64,000 bases of DNA from Rubripirellula amarantea. Lineage in GTDB: Bacteria; Planctomycetota; Planctomycetia; Pirellulales; Pirellulaceae. Below, piece by piece: positions 14,259-53,436 of the stretch (position 1 is the stretch's first letter; every line of letters begins with the position of its first letter). The notes under the pieces are model-generated. The model searched no databases, was not told the DNA's origin, and was given only the letters and a program-made list of their open reading frames with translations. The DNA lies in the NCBI RefSeq assembly GCF_007859865.1, contig NZ_SJPI01000001.1, positions 2,559,132 through 2,623,131 of the forward strand, given 5' to 3'. Made by a program: the position numbers and the translations under genes.

Positions 14259-14332
14259 GGGCGTATAGCTCAGTTGGTTAGAGCGCGTCGCTGATAACGA
14301 CGAGGTCCCAGATTCGAGTTCTGGTACGCCCA
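14259..14332 (+). tRNA. tRNA-Ile (anticodon GAT)
   Basis: 74 bases. The acceptor stem GGGCGTA pairs with TACGCCC, with A as discriminator. D-arm AGCTCAGTTGGTTAGAGC, anticodon GAT at 14293-14295 in loop CTGATAA, T-arm with TTCGAGT. CCA is not encoded. It is followed by tRNA-Ala, the usual pair of the 16S-23S spacer. Confidence 0.97.
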
Positions 14333-14411
14333 TTAAAGGAAACATGGCTGAGGTTTCAGCAAACAGGTCTTTCCCTGTTGCCTGAAAACTGTATCCTGTC
14401 GCCTTACCTTC

Positions 14412-14484
14412 GGGGGTATAGCTCAGTTGGGAGAGCGCCTGCTTTGCAAGCAGGATGTCGTCGGTTCAAGTCCGTCTACCTCCA
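14412..14484 (+). tRNA. tRNA-Ala (anticodon TGC)
   Basis: 73 bases. The acceptor stem GGGGGTA pairs with TACCTCC (one G-T pair), discriminator A. Anticodon TGC at 14445-14447 in the loop between CCTGC and GCAGG. T-arm with GTTCAAGTC. The gap to tRNA-Ile is 79 bases. Confidence 0.97.
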
Positions 14485-14492
14485 CTTTAAGT

Positions 14493-14516
14493 CTCGCACC
14501 TGTCGCATGGTGCGAG
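14493..14516 (+). other. Stem-loop just past tRNA-Ala
   Basis: CTCGCACC (14493-14500) and GGTGCGAG (14509-14516) form a perfect 8-bp stem with an 8-base loop. It begins nine bases after the tRNA and may mark 3' processing; no T-run follows. Confidence 0.6.
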
Positions 14517-14527
14517 CGAAAAAGTAG

Positions 14528-14555
14528 GCACCAAACATTTGGTGCTTTTCTTTTT
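14528..14555 (+). terminator. Intrinsic terminator after the tRNA pair
   Basis: GCACCAAA-CA-TTTGGTGC (14528-14545; in practice a shorter stem with a wider loop) is followed by TTTTCTTTTT. It lies 44 bases past tRNA-Ala and about 750 bases before 23S rRNA, so it should separate the tRNAs from the 23S-5S unit unless antitermination applies. Confidence 0.8.
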
Positions 14556-14610
14556 GGAAATGTCGCGATTGGTTCTTGCGGAAGCCGCTCCAATTTGCAA
14601 TGTTTCGCGA

Positions 14611-14725
14611 CCCGAGAAAACGACGTGAAGAATTCACGATAACTTCTCGGGGGCCGGAAGTCTCATCTCCGAATTCGGAATCATGAGGCTCCCAAGAAGA
14701 GGTTAAGAAAGTTTTTGACTTTCTT
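14611..14725 (+). other. Cluster of three further stem-loops upstream of the 23S promoter
   Basis: (a) CCCGAGAA (14611-14618) pairs with TTCTCGGG (14644-14651), with an inner CGTGAA-GAA-TTCACG. (b) The palindrome TCCGAATTCGGA (14668-14679) is flanked by CTCAT and ATGAG. (c) AAGAAAGT and ACTTTCTT enclose TTTTG near 14705-14725. They could be processing signals of a longer transcript, a small RNA, or relics of an old 16S-23S spacer. No gene is visible here. Confidence 0.55.
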
Positions 14726-14737
14726 GTGAAGACTCGG

Positions 14738-14766
14738 TTGACGGCCTTGAACGCCGACTGTATTCT
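14738..14766 (+). promoter_or_regulatory. Sigma70-type promoter upstream of 23S rRNA
   Basis: TTGACG at 14738-14743, a 17-base spacer, TATTCT at 14761-14766. The region just upstream is A/T-rich as in an UP element. This is the best promoter match between the tRNA terminator and 23S rRNA and would give a leader of about 535 bases. Confidence 0.65.
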
Positions 14767-15015
14767 TCGCCTCCCACTTGGGAAAAACGTCACGCAGGTG
14801 ACCGAATGTGTCTCTCGCTCAGTCAGAGCAAATGAGATGCCTTCGGCTGCTTACGAGCGGCGTCCTGAGTCCTCCCGGATAACCTTCGGCGGCTCAGAAC
14901 TGATATTTTACAATTTGGTTGTTTGGTAATTGGCATCTGAATAAAGAGCAACGCAGCTCTGATCGGATGAGTCATCGCTTCGGTGGTGTGCTTGTTTGTG
15001 AAGAGGTGTCTTGCA

Positions 15016-15026
15016 AGTTCTTTAGA
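15016..15026 (+). promoter_or_regulatory. Possible boxA-like antitermination element
   Basis: AGTTCTTTAGA in the 23S leader resembles the boxA core (TGCTCTTTAACA in E. coli). The match is partial and no boxB hairpin is evident. The rest of the leader (14767-15308) shows no gene. Confidence 0.25.
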
Positions 15027-15308
15027 AGCGTCGCCAGCGAAGTTTGTTTCGCATTGTTTGCCAGAGTGGATTCGTTTGCTTCGGTGAGTTTTGTGAAGTG
15101 GATGGTTGTTGGTGATTTGAATTCGAATCAAGGATTCTGTGCGAGTTGTCGATCGCGATCTTCCCTGCAGCTTGCTGTTGGGTTTTGAAGAGATTGGCAA
15201 CGAATGTGATATCGTTAGTAACTAACTGATTGAAGTTCATGATTCAGGTTGAATGGCTGGCTTTGGTTTTCCAAGGTGAGTTGTTTTGTCTGAGTTCGGG
15301 ATTTCGAC

Positions 15309-18203
<2,895 letters not shown>

Positions 18204-18377
18204 GTCGATATCCCGCACTCTGACAGCTCCTTTATTGGAGTTTCCTTGTCGAGTTCAGATTAAGACGCGTCTAAAAGATTGAGATTCAGTAACCGCATCA
18301 CACTGTCTTCGGACTTGTGTGCTACCAATTACCAAGCAACACGGCTTGCCAGTGGTGAAATACCTGCTGGCAAGTCT

Positions 18378-18488
18378 TTCCGGCGACCATATCGCAAAGG
18401 TTCTACCTGTTCCCATCCCGAACACAGAAGTCAAGCTTTGTGAGCCGATGATAGTGCCCACCAGCGTGAAAGTAGGTATTGCCGGATT
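18378..18488 (+). rRNA. rrf: 5S ribosomal RNA
   Basis: About 111 bases, 175 bases after 23S. Holds CCCATCCCGAACACAGAAGT, the conserved loop A/B region, and GCGTGAAAGTAGGTATTGCC. The terminal stem TCCGGC/GCCGGA sets the ends to within a few bases. Confidence 0.93.
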
Positions 18489-50690: not shown

Positions 50691-50994
50691 GCAGACGCTC
50701 TGGTTCAACATGGCGAAGCCGAAGCTTGCCGCTAAGAATCATTGATACCCCGAGAATCGGCCTATATGGTCGGTCGGGATAAGGCGGAAGCATGGAACAG
50801 ACCGAAGGTAGCGGCTGCACCGGACCCATCTTCGGAACGATCGGTTCAAGCGTTAACTCCGACAACGCAACCGCAATCGTTACAGGTTGCCAAACCGCAC
50901 GACCCCCATGGCTAGTGCAGTTGGCAAATGCCCGTGATTGGGGGCTGTTGGGTGTATCCCAGGCGGCTGTGATACAAGTGAACGGAGCACGGCC

Positions 50995-51052
50995 GGTTGG
51001 AGCGCGCCTGGTTGGAGCGCGCCTGGTTGGGTCGCCGTCGGTTGGTAAGACT
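50995..51052. repeat. 15-bp tandem array past the cimA stop
   Basis: GGTTGGAGCGCGCCT twice, then GGTTGGGTCGCCGTC and a partial GGTTGGTAAGACT. A degenerate copy, AACGGAGCACGGCC, precedes it. It ends about 33 bases from the cimA stop codon (51085), on the 3' side of that gene. The rest of the gap 50712-51084 shows no gene. Confidence 0.85.
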
Positions 51053-51084: not shown

Positions 51085-52674
51085 CTACGCGTTTTTTTGA
51101 TCTTCTTTATGCAGTTTGTACTCAACGGCGTCGTTGAGAGCCTGCCAACTGGCTTCGATGATGTTTTCACTCACACCGATCGTTCCCCAAGTTTCGTCCT
51201 TGTCACCGCTTTCGATGTTCACGCGAATTGAGGCGGCCGTCCCTGCTCCGCTATCAACCACACGGACCTTGTAGTCAATCAGTCGCATTTCGTTGAGGCA
51301 TGGATACGTGTCGACCAGTGCCTTTCGCAGTGCCGCATCAAGTGCATCGACGGGGCCATGGCCTTCGGCAGCATCGAACCAAAGCGTTTCGCCTACGACA
51401 AGTTTGATGACGGCTTCAGCGAACACCGTGCTATTGGCGCGATCACGATCGCCCGCAACGATTCGGTACTTAATCGCATTGAAGTGCGGCGTATAGGTTT
51501 CTGAGAGTCGCCGGATCAGCAAGTTAAAGGAAGCGTTCGCATTCTCGTACTGATAGCCCTGGTTTTCGCGTTTCACCACCTCGGCCAGGATTCGATTCAT
51601 TAGTTCTTTGTCGTCAGCGATGTTGTGCTGTGACGCGACCGCTTCAATGTTACTGCGACCGGACAATTCACTGACCAAGATCCGTCGTTCGTTGCCAACG
51701 ACAGCCGGATCGATGTGCTCGTATGTGCTGGCGGCCTTATTGATGGCGTGTACGTGCATCCCGCCCTTGTGTGCAAACGCGCTCTGTCCGACAAACGGTT
51801 GGCCACCCCTCAATTGCAAGTTCGCGGTTTCATAAACGAAGCGACTCAACTCGGTAAGTGACGTTAGAGGACGACCGTCCAGGACGGTGTAGCCGGTCTT
51901 CTTGATCGCAAGGTTTGCCATCACTGATATCAAGTCCGCATTTCCGCAACGCTCGCCGATGCCGTTGATGGTGCCTTGAACCTGGGTTGCACCGGCGTCC
52001 ACGGCGGCAAGCGAGTTCGCGACGGCAAGCTCGCCATCGTTGTGAGTGTGAATGCCGATTTGCACTCCGTAAGCCGACAACCAATTGACTGCTTTGGCGG
52101 TGATGTCGGCAACTTCTTCCGGGAGGGTTCCTCCGTTTGTGTCGCAGAATACTAACCACTTCGCACCCGCGGATGCGGCGGCCTTGAGCGTGTCGATGGC
52201 ATAGTCGGGGTTGGCCTTGAAACCATCAAAGAAATGCTCGGCGTCGTAGATGACGTCAGCGCTTTGAGCCAAGAACTCGGTGCTTTCGCCGATCATGGCA
52301 AGGTTTTCATCAAGCGATACTCGCAGCACTTCGGTTGCGTGGTAGTCCCAGGTCTTGCCAACCAAAGTGATACAGGGAGTCTGGGCGGCGACGAGGGCTT
52401 GCATGCCGGGATCATCGGCGGCCTTCATCGAACGACGTCGTGTCATGCCAAAGGCGCAAATCTTTGAACCGCCCAGGTCGTCTTTTCGGATCTGCTCGAA
52501 GAACGCAACGTCCTTTTCGTTCGAAAGCGGGTAGCCGCCCTCGATGAAGTCGATGCCGGTTTCTGCCAACCGCCGAGCGATGCTTAGCTTGTCTTGCAAC
52601 GAAAAGCTTACGCCTTCGCCCTGGGAGCCGTCTCGGAGAGTGGTGTCGTAGATTTGGATTGCTTTAGCAGACAT
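51085..52674 (-). CDS. cimA: Citramalate synthase
   Basis: Condenses pyruvate with acetyl-CoA to (R)-citramalate, the entry to threonine-independent isoleucine synthesis. N-terminal HMGL-like TIM barrel: YDTTLRDGSQGEGVSFS at 9-25, FIEGGYPLSN, CDTNGG, and the metal/catalytic IHTHNDGELAVANS. Linker domain GGMHVHAINKA, then a C-terminal LeuA-type allosteric domain from about 390. YDTTLRDGSQGEG and LVGKTWDYH are typical of CimA rather than LeuA. ATG 52674 gives 529 residues; the frame is open to 52863 but those codons lie in the leader with the attenuator. Confidence 0.93.
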   Translation of the reverse strand: MSAKAIQIYDTTLRDGSQGEGVSFSLQDKLSIARRLAETGIDFIEGGYPLSNEKDVAFFEQIRKDDLGGSKICAFGMTRRRSMKAADDPGMQALVAAQTPCITLVGKTWDYHATEVLRVSLDENLAMIGESTEFLAQSADVIYDAEHFFDGFKANPDYAIDTLKAAASAGAKWLVFCDTNGGTLPEEVADITAKAVNWLSAYGVQIGIHTHNDGELAVANSLAAVDAGATQVQGTINGIGERCGNADLISVMANLAIKKTGYTVLDGRPLTSLTELSRFVYETANLQLRGGQPFVGQSAFAHKGGMHVHAINKAASTYEHIDPAVVGNERRILVSELSGRSNIEAVASQHNIADDKELMNRILAEVVKRENQGYQYENANASFNLLIRRLSETYTPHFNAIKYRIVAGDRDRANSTVFAEAVIKLVVGETLWFDAAEGHGPVDALDAALRKALVDTYPCLNEMRLIDYKVRVVDSGAGTAASIRVNIESGDKDETWGTIGVSENIIEASWQALNDAVEYKLHKEDQKNA

Positions 52675-52717
52675 GTAATTGCCTAGACTCTCAAACGAAT
52701 TGCTTAGTCGTGATACG

Positions 52718-52750
52718 AAAAAACCCCCGAACCCTTGAAGGACTCGGGGG
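52718..52750 (-). terminator. Intrinsic terminator in the cimA leader (attenuator)
   Basis: On the minus strand CCCCCGAGTCC, loop TTCAA, GGGTTCGGGGG: an 11-bp stem with two G-T pairs, followed at once by TTTTTT (52723-52718). It lies 44 bases before the cimA ATG and on the same strand, downstream of a promoter and a leader peptide. Alternatively it ends transcripts from the FKBP gene upstream, but the promoter in between argues for attenuation. Confidence 0.85.
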
Positions 52751-52838
52751 CAAATGTTGGGGGCTCTGCGTTTTGGTGCGCTGAAATGCTGGCGGAGAAA
52801 TCGATCTACGATTCTCGACCAGCCCCATCCATCGTTCC

Positions 52839-52871
52839 CCGCGTCATGGCTGGCTGTTGCCAATGACGCGG
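52839..52871 (-). promoter_or_regulatory. Leader hairpin (1:2-type) over the leader peptide stop
   Basis: CCGCGTCAT (52871-52863) and ATGACGCGG (52847-52839) are exact complements; an inner TGGC/GCCA lengthens the stem. The 5' arm covers the Arg-Val-Ile codons of the leader peptide and the 3' arm covers its TGA. A G-run right after the 3' arm (CGGGG, 52841-52837) could pair with the C-run that opens the terminator. Confidence 0.7.
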
Positions 52872-52915
52872 TCGATAATCGACTCGATCGACGAGGAAAG
52901 GTTGCGCTGACGCAT
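52844..52915 (-). CDS. Ile-rich leader peptide of cimA
   Basis: A 23-codon frame, ATG 52915 to TGA 52844, with AGGA nine bases upstream of the ATG. It opens MRQRNLSSS and continues IESIIDRVIGNSQP. Four of 23 residues are Ile (codons 10, 13, 14, 18) and one each Val and Leu; the Ile codons stand just before or inside the 5' arm of a strong hairpin. This is the layout of ribosome-stalling leader peptides of ilv, leu and trp operons. Isoleucine as effector is inferred. Confidence 0.72.
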   Translation of the reverse strand: MRQRNLSSSIESIIDRVIGNSQP

Positions 52916-52949
52916 AATGCGGGTTCCTAAATGGAATGGGGACGCCCTG

Positions 52950-52977
52950 AGAATAGGTTGGATTTCACAAATGTCAA
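52950..52977 (-). promoter_or_regulatory. Sigma70-type promoter of cimA
   Basis: Minus strand TTGACA (52977-52972), 16-base spacer, TATTCT (52955-52950). The -35 is a perfect match. Transcription would begin near 52943, about 28 bases before the leader peptide ATG. The -35 is 13 bases past the stop of the FKBP gene. Confidence 0.75.
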
Positions 52978-52989
52978 TCCGTGCCCTGA

Positions 52990-53436
52990 TCAGTGAATCT
53001 TGTGCAATTCGACTTTAAAGTGCAGCGTCGCATTGGGCGGGATCGACCCGCTGCCGCTAGCGCCGTATCCCAGTTCTGATGGGATTTCCAGCTCAATCAT
53101 GCCGCCTTCGCCGATCAATTGCAGGCCCTCGGTCCAGCCGGCAACCACGTTTCCAAGTCGAAATTTCGCAGTTTTGCGACTGTTGTACGAACTGTCGAAG
53201 ATCGTGCCATTGTCCAGCCAGCCCGAATAGTCGACTTCGACTTCGTCCTGAGGCGTCGGTCTGGGGCCGTCCGACTTTCGCAAGATGCGGTACTTTAGCC
53301 CGGATTCGGTAGTTGTGAACTCTTCCGGTGCATCAAGGTCGATCGCCATCGGTCCTCGTGGGGCACTGCAACCCAAGGTGATCGACATCAACGCGATAGC
53401 GAAGTAACACAGGAATGACAGAGAATGTTTTTTCAT
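52990..53436 (-). CDS. FKBP-type peptidyl-prolyl isomerase, lipoprotein
   Basis: 148 residues from ATG 53436; the frame is open to 53505. MKKHSLSFLCYFAIALMSIT then LGC gives a lipobox with Cys 24, so it is lipid-anchored outside the cytoplasm. The FKBP fold follows: VEVDYSGWLDN, IFDSSYNSRK, VVAGWTEGLQLIGEGGM, IPSELGYG, LHFKVELHKIH. Close relative of the cytosolic protein at 18613-19026. Confidence 0.92.
   Translation of the reverse strand: MKKHSLSFLCYFAIALMSITLGCSAPRGPMAIDLDAPEEFTTTESGLKYRILRKSDGPRPTPQDEVEVDYSGWLDNGTIFDSSYNSRKTAKFRLGNVVAGWTEGLQLIGEGGMIELEIPSELGYGASGSGSIPPNATLHFKVELHKIH

Follow-up and report, generated by a model that had tools for sequence, protein, structure and literature searches.

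On the minus strand of the window (the whole 64-kb stretch of DNA that was analysed) lies cimA, whose product matches the citramalate synthase model TIGR00977 with 652.1 bits (cut-off 450). This enzyme is the first of the citramalate route to isoleucine, and the gene thus acts in the pathway of the amino acid which its leader would sense. An FKBP-like gene, the best model matches of which are under their cut-offs, ends at 52990, just upstream of the leader and its putative promoter.

Between the two genes are found a sigma-70-like promoter sequence, AGGA, a short frame of 23 codons with Ile at codons 10, 13, 14 and 18, a hairpin which contains the stop codon of this frame, and an intrinsic terminator with six T, which stands between the leader frame and cimA (Table 1). 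A previous sequence-only reading had listed these elements, and all of them are where it had placed them; the terminator keeps its location and its T6, but the scan gives a stem of 13 pairs (G-U allowed) with a 3-nt loop instead of 11 pairs. A long frame with a TTG start (52863-51085) was rejected as the beginning of cimA, because in relatives the terminator occupies the stretch before the ATG, and the length of this stretch is variable.

Table 1. Elements of the cimA leader in the window and the basis of each assignment
Element	Position	Strand	Basis
Putative promoter of the cimA leader, sigma-70-like, TTGACA-16-TATTCT	52950..52977	-	match to consensus
Promoter hexamers, spacer of 16 nt	TTGACA 52977-52972; TATTCT 52955-52950	-	
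AGGA, likely ribosome-binding site of the leader frame	52925..52928	-	sequence
Leader peptide frame MRQRNLSSSIESIIDRVIGNSQP*, 23 codons, TGA stop included	52844..52915	-	sequence and Ile clusters in relatives
Ile codon 10 (ATC)	52886..52888	-	region 2 not freed by a ribosome here in the model
Ile codons 13 and 14 (ATT ATC), predicted stall site	52874..52879	-	antiterminator strand exposed by a ribosome here in the model
Ile codon 18 (ATT)	52862..52864	-	fold model
Region 1, 5' strand of the protector hairpin, CCGCGTCAT	52863..52871	-	sequence, folds and pair counts
3' strand of the protector hairpin, ATGACGCGG, holding the TGA stop codon	52839..52847	-	sequence, folds and pair counts
Region 2, antiterminator strand, GACGCGGGG	52837..52845	-	complementarity and folds
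Intermediate hairpin, from region 2 to the terminator	52788..52823	-	minimum-energy fold
Region 3, segment of the terminator 5' arm, CCCCGAGTC, predicted partner of region 2	52741..52749	-	fold model
Intrinsic terminator stem-loop, regions 3 and 4	52723..52751	-	terminator scan and folds
T run, TTTTTT	52718..52723	-	sequence
cimA, citramalate synthase, gene under control, ATG at 52674	51085..52674	-	TIGR00977

The consensus scans of the window are weak by themselves (1 promoter compared to 0.5 expected, and 2 terminators compared to 1.5 expected). Folding of the leader region, which had been suggested as a check, gives -88 kcal/mol for 226 nt (z -4.48), and none of 200 shuffles is equally stable. 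The decisive support for these candidate elements is their conservation in relatives and not the consensus scans.

Elsewhere in the window, 3.1 tandem copies of a 15-bp unit, GGAGCGCGCCTGGTT, occupy positions 50984-51030, about 54 nt downstream of cimA. The genes of tRNA-Ile(gat), tRNA-Ala(tgc), 23S rRNA and 5S rRNA are found together at 14259-18487. No match to 16S rRNA was obtained within the 64 kb, and therefore the 16S gene seems to be unlinked or far away.

Recurrence of the leader in planctomycetes

A close CimA homologue is present in 21 of the 22 genomes of the genus which were searched (the copy of G013 is split over two contigs), and G019 has only the more distant paralogue. The leader and the terminator are found together in 16 of the 21 upstream regions read. 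This count includes G018, whose leader is cut by the end of a contig, and G002, whose terminator was missed by the terminator finders and was read by eye; the automatic caller used below calls neither of them. The ends of the leaders vary and the Ile clusters are kept (PSIINRVSGIVSQH, IISIAPVIGTTIGH and MIIHTSIRPINNG). G021 and G003 retain the promoter and the terminator without such a leader. The sequence-only reading had regarded this situation as evidence against an attenuator; it does occur in these two genomes, and the leader is retained in most of the genus. Neither the leader nor the terminator was found in G009, G010 and G011 within the 450-550 nt read. The absence of the leader from some members of a single genus provides natural comparison cases.

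Among 396 genomes sampled in the order, 305 have a CimA match with an E value up to 1e-150, and 63 of the 148 genomes of the phylum sample have one with an E value up to 1e-120. The upstream regions of 202 genomes were examined: 156 from the order, 12 from the class outside the order, and 34 from the phylum outside the class, where 13 further CimA genomes were left out of the set. The 156 comprise 142 of the 305, for the most part those with the best CimA matches together with 30 picked in f8 and f17, and a further 14 genomes of the genus. Three features are required by the caller: a terminator; a frame with three or more Ile among its 20 final codons, the end of which precedes that of the T run by 50-145 nt; and a duplex of region 2 at least as stable as -9 kcal/mol. 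These features are called together in 106 of the 202 upstream regions, compared to 3 of 928 random flank windows of the same contigs, none of the 202 reverse strands and 1 of 32 CimA loci from outside the planctomycetes. The earlier proposal of an Ile-sensing attenuator before cimA is supported by this co-occurrence of leader, Ile codons, terminator and alternative pairing.

The proportion of positive loci depends on the group: 14/21 in the genus itself, 45/72 in the other genera of the family, 6/11 in f7, 9/17 in f17, 0/13 in f8, 14/22 in the other examined families of the order, 12/12 in the class outside the order and 6/34 in the phylum outside the class. On contigs sorted as planctomycete by their title, the caller is positive in 26 of 48 cases, some of which may duplicate members of the 202. 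A terminator is called in 160 of 250 sets of cimA upstream sequences (129/173 and 31/77), which partly overlap and include three non-planctomycete loci. In 75 of the 106 called loci, compared to 5 of 530 shuffles, the leader stop is preceded at a distance of 40-190 nt by a promoter-like site resembling that of the window.

These counts bear on the simplest other account, according to which the terminator merely ends the transcript of the FKBP-like gene, the promoter of cimA lies downstream of the terminator and the leader frame occurs by chance. The position of the FKBP-like gene in the window is compatible with it, as are G021 and G003, where an FKBP-like gene lies upstream and the terminator is kept without the leader. 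However, an FKBP-like end, recognized by a C-terminal motif of our own design, was found upstream in only 4 of the 202 genomes (the search covered up to 1400 nt per genome, and about 800 or less in many), so that this account, which the sequence-only reading had named as a possible refutation, is a poor fit. The terminator, the Ile-rich frame and the antiterminator recur in 106 loci despite the rarity of this neighbour, and a promoter-like site precedes 75 of the 106 leaders; in the window, such a site lies after the end of the upstream gene and before the leader. Because the FKBP-like gene is so rarely upstream, this explanation was rejected as the main account, and we consider it highly improbable.

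Two other sets of loci have a different organization. In one genus, three loci (L127, L129 and L130, from G384, G074 and G335) have a strong terminator before cimA and no called Ile-rich leader. All three carry CTCCGCTTTCCGGC, which is preceded by CCGG in two of the three, forming a potential hairpin; in this genus, the leader may have given way to a different control element. In six genomes of one genus (L115, L117, L118, L119, L121 and L122), neither the leader nor the terminator is called before cimA, and the upstream coding region seems, by eye, to be close to cimA.

The short leader frame is enriched in codons of the end product, as can be seen in a frame-blind test in which the anchor is the best complement of the terminator arm and codons are counted in the best of the three frames. 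The Ile count is 3.90 compared to 2.36 in dinucleotide shuffles (z 23.5, the top of all residues), and at least three Ile are present in 125 of 150 loci, compared to a fraction of 0.419 in the shuffles; n = 150 was obtained after the removal of two near-identical sets, and it still contains some other named genomes which overlap with unnamed ones. The conservation of Ile codons in the short frames of relatives, which had been put forward as a check, is supported by this excess. Leu (z 19.3), Tyr (z 13.3) and Val (z 12.2) also score above the shuffles, and the scores of Leu and Tyr probably arise from ATT runs which are read as TTA and TAT in another frame.

The choice of Ile codons is not the same in the leaders and in cimA. 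The ATT:ATC:ATA counts are 399:141:8 in 129 leaders chosen for their Ile content, and 777:1863:152 in CimA coding sequences: ATT is favoured in the former (399 of 548 Ile codons) and ATC in the latter (1863 of 2792).

A conditional terminator could also be switched by a riboswitch, a T-box or a protein, independently of the translation of the leader. The conservation of the terminator and the hairpin in near genera would be expected in this case, and PMC2494555 reports T-boxes predicted before leuA in Geobacter and Pelobacter. But Rfam gives nothing at gathering score at the cimA leader (the matches in the window are to rRNA and tRNA only) and no family at an E value up to 1 in nine cimA loci. 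Moreover, the feature which recurs is an Ile-rich frame in an otherwise variable sequence, and the stop codon of this frame marks the antiterminator. Such a switch is therefore very unlikely. A described RNA family (T-box, riboswitch or other) was rejected, no covariance-model match having been obtained at the leader in the window or in the nine loci.

Alternative pairings and ribosome position

Two types of leaders can be distinguished: in the long type, to which the window belongs, the leader stop is 95-145 nt before the end of the T run, and in the short type this distance is 50-94 nt. The leaders used in the analyses of pairing, ribosome position and protector hairpin were selected for their Ile content. 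In both types, the complementarity to the 5' arm of the terminator is maximal at the stop codon, with a mean duplex energy of -14.15 kcal/mol in the long type (n = 30) and -15.12 kcal/mol in the short type (n = 74), compared to about -3 to -9 kcal/mol in windows upstream of the peak.

In short-type leaders, region 2 fits the arm of its own terminator better than the arms of other genomes (0 of 2000 permutations are as good), and this holds in 64 non-redundant leaders which are less than 65% alike (0 of 5000). In the long type, the own arm has no clear advantage over swapped arms (136 of 2000 permutations are as good), and both region 2 and the arm are nearly invariant among leaders. In 24 aligned long-type leaders, 89.6% of the cells of the 2:3 pairing are paired, and no compensatory changes were found in this pairing. 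For the protector hairpin and the terminator of the same 24 leaders, 94.1% of the cells pair (0 of 500 shuffles are as high) and 15 cells are changed on both sides (0 of 500 shuffles have as many), two of the five measures are not above the shuffles (63/500 and 256/500), and the scores are inflated by the kinship of the sequences. The hairpin CCGCGTC...GACGCGGGG is kept in most of these leaders and altered in a few (e.g., L003, L007 and L018). As to the covariation suggested as a check, double changes are found in the protector and the terminator, and region 2 and the arm change together in the short type, but no such changes are found in the 2:3 pairing of the long type. In our judgement, the short-type leaders have too little common sequence for a covariance model.

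To model the effect of a ribosome, 30 nt around a given codon were masked and each transcript was folded as far as the loop of the terminator. In the window, with the ribosome at Ile13, Ile14 or Ile18, the minimum-energy fold pairs GAC-x-CGGGG with CCCCG-x-GTC, the predicted antiterminator. The pairing of CGGGG (52841-52837, minus strand) with CCCCCG which had been proposed earlier is thus right in essence, the modelled strands being slightly different. The antiterminator does not form in the window fold of the free RNA, or with the ribosome at Ile10 or at the stop codon; in the free RNA and with the ribosome at the stop, the arm segment stays free. On average, the change in arm pairing in the window is moderate (0.46 with the ribosome at Ile, 0.23 at the stop and 0.32 in free RNA).

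Over 128 leaders, the computed pairing of the terminator arm with upstream sequence has a mean of 0.701 with the ribosome at Ile, 0.416 at the stop and 0.633 in free RNA, and it is higher at Ile than at the stop in 119 of them. When region 2 is shuffled, the difference between Ile and stop falls from 0.285 to 0.082 and Ile exceeds stop in 257 of 384 cases; because some difference is kept, the effect is partly that of the position of the mask alone. The computed folds suggest that the antiterminator pairing would exclude the terminator and that the position of the ribosome would decide between the two.

The leader might instead act on the translation of cimA, or through the coupling of transcription and translation (Rho), the hairpins being secondary. 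Some actinobacterial leader peptides lack the other parts of an attenuator, and Rho is suggested there in PMC1262725. Against this reading, relatives repeatedly have both a strong terminator followed by a T run and an antiterminator which complements the 5' arm of this terminator, and the T run of the window ends 43 nt before cimA; there is very little chance that it is correct.

The computed folds also distinguish the two types of leaders. The hold of upstream sequence on region 2 in the free RNA exceeds 0.5 in 23 of 31 long-type leaders, with a value of 0.77 in the window, and in only 19 of 97 short-type leaders, 78 of the 97 being unheld. A protector hairpin (1:2) which would permit termination without translation is thus predicted in the window and in the long type, and in few short-type leaders. 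For 72 of the 97 short-type leaders, the value of the free RNA differs by no more than 0.1 from that of the Ile-stalled state, and for 69 of the 97 it exceeds that of the stop state by more than 0.1. Because the free RNA resembles the Ile-stalled state, a ribosome at the stop codon seems to be necessary for termination in the short type, which prevails in the other genera and families where a leader is called. The window's type could also terminate untranslated RNA.

Proposed mechanism and a parallel leader before leuA

Considering this anatomy, its recurrence, the complementarity, the matched changes in short-type leaders and the predicted folds, the cimA leader is very probably a ribosome-mediated transcription attenuator which senses charged tRNA-Ile. 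Counting against it are the upstream regions without a call (only 106 of 202 are positive, with none in f8 and few in the phylum outside the class), the genomes of the genus which lack the leader, the 2:3 pairing of the long type with its missing compensatory changes, and, in the window, the moderate computed change and the failure of Ile10 to release the antiterminator strand. RNA polymerase would start just past the promoter and make the leader while the 23-codon frame is translated. If isoleucine is sufficient, the ribosome would reach the stop codon and cover the antiterminator strand, or leave and let the protector hairpin re-form. The antiterminator strand being covered or held, the terminator would fold and transcription would stop before cimA. 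If isoleucine is scarce, the ribosome would stall at Ile13, Ile14 or Ile18 and cover the 5' strand of the hairpin; GACGCGGGG would then be freed to pair with the 5' arm of the terminator, and the polymerase would continue into cimA. The transcription start, the stalling, the efficiency of termination and the response to isoleucine are predicted steps of this scheme. The scheme yields a prediction which can be tested from sequence.

The leader of the paralogous gene leuA in the genome of the window contains MQTYLLTLSLLLGRQFGG, followed by TGATGAGGGTTTG, CGAACCC and a terminator. This locus, which is outside the window (G000:C1:1047700-1048610, L215), has its own Leu-rich attenuator-like leader with a GGGTTTG/CGAACCC antiterminator. 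A Leu-rich leader is found before leuA in 19 of 20 upstream regions of the genus, with 117 Leu compared to 16 Ile, although this count is partly selected because the search required the stop-site pattern and at least three Leu. A Leu leader was not found in the leuA upstream region of L030. The terminator pattern is present in 18 of the 20. Conversely, the last 22 residues of 14 cimA leaders of the genus contain 56 Ile compared to 10 Leu. The leuA leaders favour CTA (45 of 117 Leu codons). The cimA/Ile and leuA/Leu leaders thus form a matched pair, which serves as an internal control.

No such leader was seen by eye in the upstream regions of ilvC and ilvB of the same genome (about 420 nt each), and therefore control may sit at the branch enzymes in this organism. 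The single threonine deaminase model searched, TIGR01127, gave only matches under its cut-off, which suggests that cimA may be the main route to isoleucine.

It is conceivable, though we would not favour it over its negation, that planctomycetes have an old, lineage-wide attenuator at branch-point enzymes (Ile for cimA, Leu for leuA). Outside the near genera, most cimA leaders would then have no protector, either lost or never present, so that untranslated RNA would read through by default and termination would need a ribosome on a stop codon which overlaps the antiterminator strand. If this is true, the default of the short type is the reverse of that of the trp leader. Planctomycetota have unusual cell plans, and the attenuator, which appears across much of the phylum, would imply a close coupling of the ribosome and RNA polymerase in these cells.

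Comparison with known systems

Attenuation of the trp type controls the trp, his, leu and ilvGMEDA leaders of proteobacteria. The cimA element resembles them in having a leader rich in the end-product amino acid, a putative promoter upstream and a biosynthetic gene downstream, and in the predicted mutually exclusive protector, antiterminator and terminator. It differs from them in its target, cimA, in its phylum, Planctomycetota, and in that the stop codon overlaps the antiterminator strand. The window also has an extra hairpin between regions 2 and 3, and, unlike in the trp type, region 2 is computed to be unheld by a protector in the 78 short-type cimA leaders mentioned above.

Like a T-box, the cimA element would sense the aminoacylation of one tRNA, and many T-boxes act on termination. 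T-boxes are not known to have a leader frame, whereas the cimA element has one and has no Rfam match. T-box control of leuA or of isoleucyl-tRNA synthetase genes is described in PMC2494555 and PMC1262725, and the table of the former gives no T-box for the single planctomycete genome scanned.

The leuA leaders of the genus share with cimA the leader, the antiterminator and the terminator before a paralogous enzyme. They differ in having Leu codons, CTA being the commonest, instead of Ile codons, and the leader sequences are unrelated. In actinobacteria, the ilvB leader frames have runs of Ile, Val and Leu codons (PMC1262725). These ilvB leaders have in common with cimA a branched-chain leader peptide and terminator hairpins before a branched-chain biosynthetic gene; the gene and the phylum are different, and in planctomycetes the leader of the Ile branch is rich in Ile and that of the Leu branch in Leu.

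Most descriptions of amino-acid leader peptides come from proteobacteria and actinobacteria. According to a survey published in 2010 (PMC2965389), none had been shown outside these two groups until the Firmicutes case which it presents; further Firmicutes cases followed later (PMC5794164, PMC5864092). The sequence-only reading knew of no described cimA attenuator in planctomycetes, and, in agreement with it, no leader-peptide attenuator of cimA or of planctomycetes was found among literature titles and abstracts, a coverage which leaves out most subscription journals. A table of Weinberg 2010 (PMC2864571) lists a motif named 'Rhodopirellula-1' in Proteobacteria and Planctomycetes, and nothing further was found under this name in the literature beyond that table. 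This motif may overlap the cimA leader element. The mechanism itself is known; the gene, the spread at the scale of a phylum and the overlap of the stop codon with the antiterminator strand seem to be new.
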